The position numbers and the translations under genes are program-made. Of a DNA stretch of 64,000 bases, positions 41,586 to 43,314 are shown one piece after another. The notes beneath the pieces are model-generated. The model did no database searches. It was not told the origin of the DNA and saw nothing but the letters and a program-made list of their open reading frames with translations. The stretch's first letter is position 1; every line of letters begins with the position of its first letter. This stretch comes from Lysinibacillus sp. OF-1 (GTDB lineage Bacteria; Bacillota; Bacilli; Bacillales_A; Planococcaceae), in the NCBI RefSeq assembly GCF_028356935.1, contig NZ_CP102798.1, positions 2,542,001 to 2,606,000 on the forward strand. Reading direction: 5' to 3'.

Positions 41586-42776
41586 TTACGAGTTATGATG
41601 TGCTGATGAATAATCTACGTGCTGCTCCTGACCAAGAGGTGCTCTTTTAATAGAGAAGATGGCACAAGCTAATGCACCGAGAACTAGAATCGTACCAAAG
41701 CTTGCTAAGTGCATAACGGACCCTGTCCAAGCAAACATAGCGCCTCCTACTGCTGATCCGATGGAGATCCCGATTTGCAGGGCAGCTGTATTTAAGCTTT
41801 GCTGAATATCAGATGATTGAGGATCTGCCTGAATTAAATAATTTTGTAATGGTGGTGTCAAAGCCCAGCTCAACGCCCCCCATAAAACCGTAAATACTAA
41901 AAACAGTGGCAGGGCAATAACTGTATAAGGAATAGTAAATAACACAATGGCAAAGGCAGAGACGATTAAAATAATAGCCTTGCTTGTGCCAATTTTATCA
42001 CTCACCCAGCCTCCTATAGCGTTCCCGCTAACAGAGGCAATACCGAAAATTAAGTAGCAAATACTAATCCATGAGGCACTCAGATCAAATGCTTCTACTA
42101 AGAATGGTGTTAAATAAGCGTAGAGCATGTAATGACCCGCTAACATAAACAGCGTAGTTAACTGTGCTGTTAGGATTTTCAAATTCGCCAATGATTTGAT
42201 TTGTGCCTTCAGTGGCACTACTTCTCCGATTGGCATTTTTTCAAGCAATAAGGCAATTAAAACCATTGAAATCGTTGACAGGATACTAATACCTAAAAAT
42301 ACAGCACGCCAGCCAAACGCTTCTGTAATAAAAATACCCATTGGCACACCGATTACAAGCGCGGAACTTACGCCCATAAAAACAAGCCCTAATGCTTTGG
42401 CACGGTGGCGGGGCTCTACGATTTTAGTAGTAATCGTTAATGATAATACGATGACTAACGCTGTACTCATCGCTGTGAAAATACGAGCAATTAGCACAAT
42501 GATGAACGTTGTACTAAAGAAGGTCATTAGATTCCCTAACGTGAAAATAAATAAAGAAATAAGGAATAAGCGCTTCCGTTCCACCTTGGCTGTCAAGGAT
42601 AGTAGGACTGGCGCAGAAATCGCATAAACCAGTGCAAAAATTGTGATTAATTGTCCTGCTGTTGCTAATGATACATGTAAATCCTCTGCAATATTTGGCA
42701 GGATTCCACCAACAATTAATTCAACTAACCCTACTGCGAAGGTTGTCACTGCAAGAATATAAACTCTCCAATTCAT
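41586..42776 (-). CDS. pbuE: MFS purine efflux pump, PbuE-like
   Basis: A 396-aa major facilitator with 12 membrane segments, of the DHA1/AraJ branch. N-terminal LAVTTFAVGLVELIVGGILPNIA is typical of PbuE and its relatives, and B. subtilis PbuE has a similar length. PbuE exports purine bases and ribonucleosides. What makes the call strong is the purine riboswitch directly upstream, very similar to the one controlling B. subtilis pbuE. GGGAG lies before the ATG. The gene is monocistronic. Confidence 0.85.
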   Translation of the reverse strand: MNWRVYILAVTTFAVGLVELIVGGILPNIAEDLHVSLATAGQLITIFALVYAISAPVLLSLTAKVERKRLFLISLFIFTLGNLMTFFSTTFIIVLIARIFTAMSTALVIVLSLTITTKIVEPRHRAKALGLVFMGVSSALVIGVPMGIFITEAFGWRAVFLGISILSTISMVLIALLLEKMPIGEVVPLKAQIKSLANLKILTAQLTTLFMLAGHYMLYAYLTPFLVEAFDLSASWISICYLIFGIASVSGNAIGGWVSDKIGTSKAIILIVSAFAIVLFTIPYTVIALPLFLVFTVLWGALSWALTPPLQNYLIQADPQSSDIQQSLNTAALQIGISIGSAVGGAMFAWTGSVMHLASFGTILVLGALACAIFSIKRAPLGQEQHVDYSSAHHNS

Positions 42777-42832
42777 CGTAATCTCCCTTTCATTACACTT
42801 CCATTTTTATAGGAGATTCTTTTAAAACATAA

Positions 42833-42880
42833 TAAAAAAATCCTGACTACAAAAATGAAGCAAAGTTTTGTAGTCAGGAT
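42833..42880 (-). terminator. Riboswitch expression platform (terminator)
   Basis: Stem formed by 42865-42880 with 42840-42855, followed by seven T on the minus strand. Its 5' arm is the 3' part of the aptamer (P3 and P1), so purine binding should prevent termination and turn the gene on. Confidence 0.8.
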
Positions 42881-42935
42881 TTTATGGTTCCTGGTAGAGA
42901 CCCTCAATCCATATTATTGAGGTTATACAGATCAA
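42864..42935 (-). ncRNA. Purine riboswitch aptamer upstream of pbuE
   Basis: Minus strand shows the conserved purine aptamer: TATAACCTC, P2 CCTCAAT/ATTGAGG with loop ATATGG, junction GTCTCTACC, and P3 CAGGA/TCCTG with loop ACCATAAAA. Loop GG/CC pairs for loop-loop contact are kept. The J3/1 specificity base is C (42873), in CTGACTAC, whereas the B. subtilis pbuE adenine switch has T. By the established rule C means guanine-type binding. P1 looks short, about four contiguous pairs. Confidence 0.85.
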
Positions 42936-43110
42936 ATATTTACTTTAGCTATAGTAGCACATCAAAATTTCATTGACAATAGATTTTTTTCATAGAATGA
43001 ACGCCATCATAAAACCGTGGAATCGAGAGAAAATTTTGAATTTCTGCTTATATTTCGACGAATTTGACCATACATATTAACATACAATAACTATTTTAAG
43101 AGGTGATTGT

Positions 43111-43314
43111 TTGCGCATAGTAGGATTTGTTTGCTATTTTTTAATACTATTTTATGGCGTAGAATTAGTAGTAGAAGAGTTCACGATTGAAGAACCAGCA
43201 ATCCATTCTCCAGCAAAAAGTAGGCCGTCGCCCATTAAAGAAACCGTTGAAAACTCAAGAATTTGTGTCTATTATCCCACGTATAAAAGCTGTACAGATT
43301 TACCCCAAAATTAA
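43111..43314 (+). CDS. Small exported or membrane protein, 67 aa
   Basis: TTG start at 43111 after AAGAGGTGAT. One hydrophobic segment at residues 3-20, then a Glu/Pro-rich soluble part with two Cys (RICVYYPTYKSC). It could be a small secreted protein with one disulfide. No family recognised. A terminator overlaps its stop. Confidence 0.6.
   Translation: MRIVGFVCYFLILFYGVELVVEEFTIEEPAIHSPAKSRPSPIKETVENSRICVYYPTYKSCTDLPQN

Follow-up and report, generated by a model that had tools for sequence, protein, structure and literature searches.

A pbuE-type purine riboswitch with the guanine-selecting base in Lysinibacillus, and apparently recurrent swaps of its likely signal among relatives

Introduction

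The pyrimidine at position 74 is described as the specificity-determining base of purine riboswitch aptamers in passages of PMC9756952, and also of PMC9295807 and PMC7707468. Passages of PMC9295807 present the adenine class as a guanine-class variant and define guanine-I riboswitches by C74 in combination with U22 and U51. The laboratory swap of the single base at 74, chimeras joining guanine aptamers to the pbuE expression platform and natural ligand variants of the scaffold are all already known, as passages of PMC7707468 and PMC9295807 document; according to the former, induction of about 14-fold was obtained when a guanine/hypoxanthine aptamer was combined with a modified pbuE platform. 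The same source reports, in its passages on strand exchange of the pbuE type, that an A-A mismatch under loop L3 and a paired P2 base are important, and according to a passage of PMC9756952 pbuE needs no more than three P1 pairs. Covariation in purine riboswitches, terminators included, has already been studied (PMC3723493, in passages). Class switching goes unmentioned in passages of PMC3723493, PMC2258182, PMC3766115 and PMC10907184, and a literature search returned no report of C74 pbuE leaders or of repeated class switching, which is weak evidence of absence, subscription papers falling mostly outside the coverage of the search.

Results

A C74 aptamer ahead of a PbuE-type gene

The window analysed is a stretch of 64,000 nucleotides from Lysinibacillus sp. 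OF-1. A single purine aptamer was found in it by Rfam search (RF00167, 42950-42851, minus strand, flanks included), with 77.9 bits (gathering score 37) and an E value of 3.4e-12; the three-stem junction and its joints are intact. All features described below lie on the minus strand. Aptamer core, terminator and T run together cover 42929-42834, of which 42929-42869 make up the aptamer itself. P1 joins 42926-42929 (U18-A21) to 42872-42869, P2 and its loop L2 (AATATGG) occupy 42902-42922, J2/3 (U47, C48, U49, C50, U51, A52, C53) spans 42894-42900, and P3 with its loop L3 (CCATAAA) spans 42875-42893, an A-A mismatch (42888/42880) being located below the loop. These parts were delimited from the letters, the Rfam match and the predicted fold. 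J3/1 reads G(42875)-A(42874)-C(42873)-T-A-C, and the C at 42873 is base 74 in the numbering that follows xpt. It is the guanine-selecting base, found where the adenine class has T; the U at 74 of the adenine class is missing, and the guanine-I set C74, U22 and U51 is complete (42873, 42925 and 42896). U22, U47, U51 and the remaining pocket letters are standard.

The leader was compared to the pbuE leader L262 of genome G623, which we take to be B. subtilis or close kin from its leader letters, those of the B. subtilis pbuE leader. The two are identical at 59 of 63 letters, from GTATAACC to TACAAAA, and the four differences are base 74 and three other aptamer letters. The near-identity to the B. 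subtilis type and the GACTAC in J3/1 are as described in the original prediction, on the minus strand.

A terminator hairpin is predicted at 42840-42880, where the arm 42880-42866, common to P3, J3/1 and P1, pairs with 42854-42840 across a loop of 11; a run of seven T follows (42834-42840). J3/1 and the 3' strands of P3 and P1 together form the 5' arm of the terminator, as in the ON layout of the pbuE type. In the 3' arm, which reads GTAGTC, the G at 42847 faces C74, and the pair is kept, as had also been noticed. A simple scan for terminators of 42700-43200 found none; the scan accepts loops of 3-8 only, and that of the predicted hairpin is 11. Predicted folding energies of -32.0 kcal/mol with the terminator and of -16.1 kcal/mol with the aptamer enforced, calculated with no ligand term, suggest that the switch is OFF by default and that ligand is needed to hold the aptamer. 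Both the A-A mismatch under L3 and the paired P2 base are present in the letters of the leader. A promoter-like sequence (TTGTCA-17-TACTAT, with TG ahead of the second hexamer) is located upstream at 42951-42979; the promoter scan around the leader gave 3 sites where shuffles predict 2.5, and there is no excess.

The gene downstream (41586-42776, ATG at 42776-42774, 57 bases beyond the T run) encodes a PbuE-type protein of 396 aa matching MFS_1 in Pfam. This protein and the PbuE of G623 are reciprocal best hits with 53% identity: the match scores 429 bits in the window genome, where the runner-up has 155, and 430.5 in G623, where the runner-up has 211.8. On this basis the gene is orthologous to B. 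subtilis PbuE. The window protein stays below the cut-off of every NCBIfam model, and the top-scoring one, a chloramphenicol efflux family, is at about half its own. The guanine-specifying base and the ON design ahead of a PbuE-type gene, which formed the core of the original prediction, are all found at the locus. Homology at this level points to a likely purine-export pump.

The window protein is 100% identical to that of Lysinibacillus fusiformis strain Juneja 3 (L065), and named relatives group the genome with L. fusiformis. L. fusiformis M5 was picked for sequencing for its production of hypoxanthine, given there as unpublished data, and pbuE is named by the same authors a putative hypoxanthine transporter of the strain (PMC5105109); the title of a further paper states that L. 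fusiformis M5 alters B. subtilis colony biofilms via hypoxanthine. The M5 sequencing report fits the purine-export reading circumstantially. Alternatively, guanine might be sensed by the leader of a gene that is not a purine exporter here, the substrate of the transporter having changed along with the sensor; in favour of this, the MFS family is large and diverse and the NCBIfam naming is weak. Such a double change is unlikely: the reciprocal best hit has a wide gap to the next protein, the PbuE proteins of C74 and T74 sisters are closely similar on the tree, and the hypoxanthine report for M5 speaks against a non-exporter.

In the favoured mechanism, the leader is a pbuE-type riboswitch which, with C74, probably binds guanine or hypoxanthine, blocks the overlapping terminator and lets the likely purine-export pump be made; the ligand is deduced from C74 as specificity base. 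With no ligand, the terminator arm would invade P1 and P3 and transcription would stop. Guanine or hypoxanthine pairing with C74 would hold P1 and P3, and transcription would continue. Apart from C74, the window leader closely resembles an adenine switch, and a C74 aptamer might be imagined to go on using adenine, or to use xanthine or 2'-deoxyguanosine, its signal not having been swapped to guanine/hypoxanthine. We hold this highly improbable, because C74, U22 and U51 are the guanine-I set, and the U51G of the xanthine variant and the joint insertions, as given in passages of PMC9295807, are absent here.

Distribution of C74 and T74 leaders

The pbuE ortholog was identified in 31 of the 32 Lysinibacillus-genus genomes searched, the exception (G005) being 86% complete. 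C74 faces G in all 31 same-genus leaders (L035-L064 and L102), and the same C/G pair is found in 18/18 named Lysinibacillus records. This recurrence excludes a sequencing error, which had been thought unlikely from the start, and the alignment of Lysinibacillus pbuE leaders that had been proposed bears out the co-varying pair. The base change is not private to the strain, being fixed in the genus sample and having arisen several more times elsewhere. A T in related strains had been named as an observation that would count against the prediction: none occurs within Lysinibacillus, and T is the base of the neighbouring Metasolibacillus, where its place on the tree leads us to read it as switching and not as contradiction.

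In the family, the ortholog (E <= 1e-110) was found in 144 of 261 genomes and is preceded by the leader in all 144, with C74 in 55 and T74 in 89. The order-level sample consists of the same 261 genomes, and samples of the class and of a second family were added. Among 398 genomes sampled evenly across the class, at least 40 match the leader pattern. At least 18 of the 40 belong to other families and have T74, apart from one extra site in G545, where the two strands give C and T, respectively. Sixteen of the 18 outside-family loci were taken up, and a PbuE ORF lies behind the leader in 12 of these. In the family of G478, at least 46 of 80 genomes match; 44 have T74 and two (G672, G681) have C74 facing an unchanged A. 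Twelve of the 46 loci were taken up, all with PbuE downstream. The class and G478-family counts are lower bounds, as the leader pattern misses divergent leaders.

Among 201 loci, 25 were dropped as duplicates or near-duplicates, 19 of them C/G (L065-L080, L083, L084, L099) and six T/A (L082, L087, L093, L260, L261, L268), to obtain a non-redundant set of 176 leaders. L249, L250, L256 and L257, in which no PbuE ORF was found, were excluded, and L255, cut by a contig end, was excluded from the trees only. L256 and L257 (genomes G615 and G576) are pbuE-pattern sites with no PbuE ORF in the examined stretch, that of L256 ending with the contig.

Constraint on the pocket and on the terminator pair

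The 176 non-redundant leaders divide into 57 with C and 119 with T at base 74, and none has A or G there. C74 faces G in 55/57 leaders and A in the other two (L263, L264), and T74 faces A in 115/119 and G in four (L133, L188, L201, L258). L263 and L264, in which the terminator base is unpaired, may be leaky. G19-A23, U47, U49-C54, the GG of L2, the CC of L3, G72 and U75-A78 are invariant in both classes, and the variation of J1/2 and J2/3 is limited to position 48 and to one A24G. The leader parser required part of the invariant letters, and zero loci failed it. As the pocket and loop letters do not vary in either class, the C74 aptamers look kept as ligand binders, and decay of the aptamer in C74 leaders, which had been considered, is unsupported. 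One leader of the 176, L215 (genome G102), has C instead of A at position 73; its terminator carries the matching G, and T74 is retained.

As a group, C74 leaders have shorter P1 stems and weaker predicted terminators, with a mean of -18.4 kcal/mol vs -22.5 kcal/mol for T74 leaders. P1 has at most four contiguous pairs in 52/57 C74 and in 37/118 T74 leaders. The original prediction had pointed to a short P1 in the window. Its four contiguous pairs are confirmed in the predicted fold; as an unusual trait the shortness does not stand, considering how many T74 leaders share it. Independent pairs on the tree show no trend of P1 length with base 74, and a short P1 was rejected as a partner change of C74, shared ancestry explaining the association equally well. 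The shorter stems and weaker predicted terminators could also reflect relaxed selection.

If ligand sensing had been lost and the leader were a constitutive attenuator, C and T might drift neutrally at base 74 as long as the terminator pairs. The exchange is a transition, the terminator partner follows base 74, and the stems and terminators of C74 leaders are on average the poorer ones, all of which would suit such a loss. It is nevertheless very unlikely, since the other pocket and loop-loop letters are as fixed in the 57 C74 leaders as in the 119 T74 ones, purines never occur at 74, and the terminator pair is broken in two C74 leaders.

History of base 74

On a carefully built tree with 72 representatives of PbuE, base 74 requires 11 C/T changes, 10 of which are forced by well-supported branches; the bootstrap range is 11 at both ends. 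Quick trees gave 10 changes (8 forced) with 160 rows, 11 changes (9 forced) with 175 rows and 9 changes with the 144 family rows. A single origin of C74 was rejected on the 72-protein tree, where constraining C74 to one clade lowers lnL by 1129 (p-AU 2.7e-76). When the tree is rooted on L258/L259, a T at the root needs 11 changes and a C needs 14, and we infer that the ancestral base was T. With a T root, between 2 and 5 of the 11 changes are C->T returns. The root and return figures are the same in 181 of 200 bootstrap trees, and in two of the bootstrap trees the minimum falls to one return. Genus g10 (Metasolibacillus), which branches within C74 Lysinibacillus, shows a return most clearly; inside g10, Bacillus ndiopicus (L084/L104) has C74 again. 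L188, in which T faces G, is the tree sister of L169, in which C faces G. C and T sisters have clade-specific letters beside base 74 in common, e.g. the TTCTGA arm of L103 and L104, which suggests change in place.

The scatter of C74 lineages on the tree might alternatively be due to the spread of C74 by leader exchange or by transfer of the whole leader-gene unit, and the latter would leave no mark on the PbuE tree against the species. We consider spread of this kind improbable in comparison with repeated origin in place. The count of changes comes from the phylogeny of the linked gene, sister leaders with different bases at 74 have the same neighbouring letters, and the halfway states, with T facing G or C facing A, suggest point mutation. 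Under repeated origin in place, an ancestral adenine-class switch with T74 would have been shifted to the guanine class several times by single T->C changes, with some returns, and the facing terminator base would have changed before or after base 74.

Other purine aptamers and metabolic context

The window genome hosts four other purine aptamers, all with C74, ahead of genes for a xanthine phosphoribosyltransferase and a pbuX-like permease, for a Xan_ur_permease-family protein, for guaA and for purE-purK; its whole set of purine aptamers accordingly reads as guanine class. The same bases that would shut the guanine-class import and synthesis switches of the genome would then open the export valve. 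C74 was found in 63/63 non-pbuE purine aptamers (33 from the window genus and 30 from genus g17, best-scoring and not a random draw), and among those examined toggling at base 74 looks special to pbuE-type leaders. In the L004 aptamer ahead of guaA in the window genome (1501-1602; C1:4119061-4119162, minus strand), G54-C72 replaces C54-G72 and U73 replaces the otherwise near-invariant A73, with C74 kept; this is a possible pocket variant.

In two genomes of another family (L249 in G308, L250 in G348), a pbuE-type T74 leader with an overlapping terminator is located ahead of an adenine deaminase gene (TIGR01178, above the cut-off). These leaders are apparent ON adenine switches of adenine breakdown, judging from their letters and neighbours, and they fit adenine sensing by T74. 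C74 aptamers ahead of adenine deaminase were found in L300-L302 (G208, G176, G203), genomes which also have a C74 pbuE leader. Among 12 adenine-deaminase upstream regions, three have a C74 purine aptamer and nine have none detected by the parser. Adenine deaminase (TIGR01178, above the cut-off) is encoded by 24/55 C74 and by 40/89 T74 family genomes. A metabolic cause acting via adenine deaminase was rejected, as its content does not track base 74; 7 independent pairs on supported branches, and 9 on all branches, show no trend.

Discussion

Taken as a whole, we think it probable that one orthologous switch-pump pair of Lysinibacillus and related bacteria has toggled between adenine and guanine/hypoxanthine about eleven times, two or more of these being returns to adenine, by one pocket base each and via surviving T-G or C-A intermediates, and that the guanine form is a self-triggered hypoxanthine overflow valve in which the pumped base is its own inducer. 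Going by the leaders and the trees, the swap of the likely signal is natural and recurrent, and apparently also reversible.

That a single base determines the ligand of a purine riboswitch is classically demonstrated in the laboratory by the swap at position 74. Nature appears to have run this experiment repeatedly and in both directions, at a place where the base must also fit a terminator. The natural sister pairs L103/L104, L156/L184, L188/L169 and L267/L263, in each of which the first leader has T74 and the second C74, are suited to measuring both the signal swap and the refitting of the expression platform. With a guanine-class aptamer on an export ON switch, one ligand would turn import off and export on, and the reported hypoxanthine output of L. 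fusiformis would have a candidate mechanism. In annotation, base 74 should be read before a pbuE leader is called an adenine riboswitch.

The closest known system is the adenine riboswitch of B. subtilis pbuE (ydhL). It shares with the window leader the orthologous gene, the ON layout and a terminator that overlaps P1, J3/1 and P3, as well as the A-A mismatch under L3, according to passages of PMC7707468 for the layout and the mismatch. The differences are T74 and a terminator A there against C74 and G in the window, with three more aptamer letters. With the guanine-I riboswitches of xpt-pbuX and yxjA the window leader has the pocket in common, C74 included; those two are described as OFF switches, whereas the window leader has an ON layout ahead of an exporter. 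Engineered swaps (xpt C74U, and the xpt aptamer on the pbuE platform) likewise change the ligand class by one base at 74, as passages of PMC7707468 tell. In contrast to them, the Lysinibacillus swap occurs in nature, is fixed across the genus sample, comes with a fitting terminator change and is repeated. Natural changes of ligand preference on one scaffold are likewise known from the xanthine, guanine-II and 2'-dG variants (PMC9295807, in passages). These variants are presented there as separate, narrowly distributed classes, whereas the pbuE leader appears to move between the two main classes many times.
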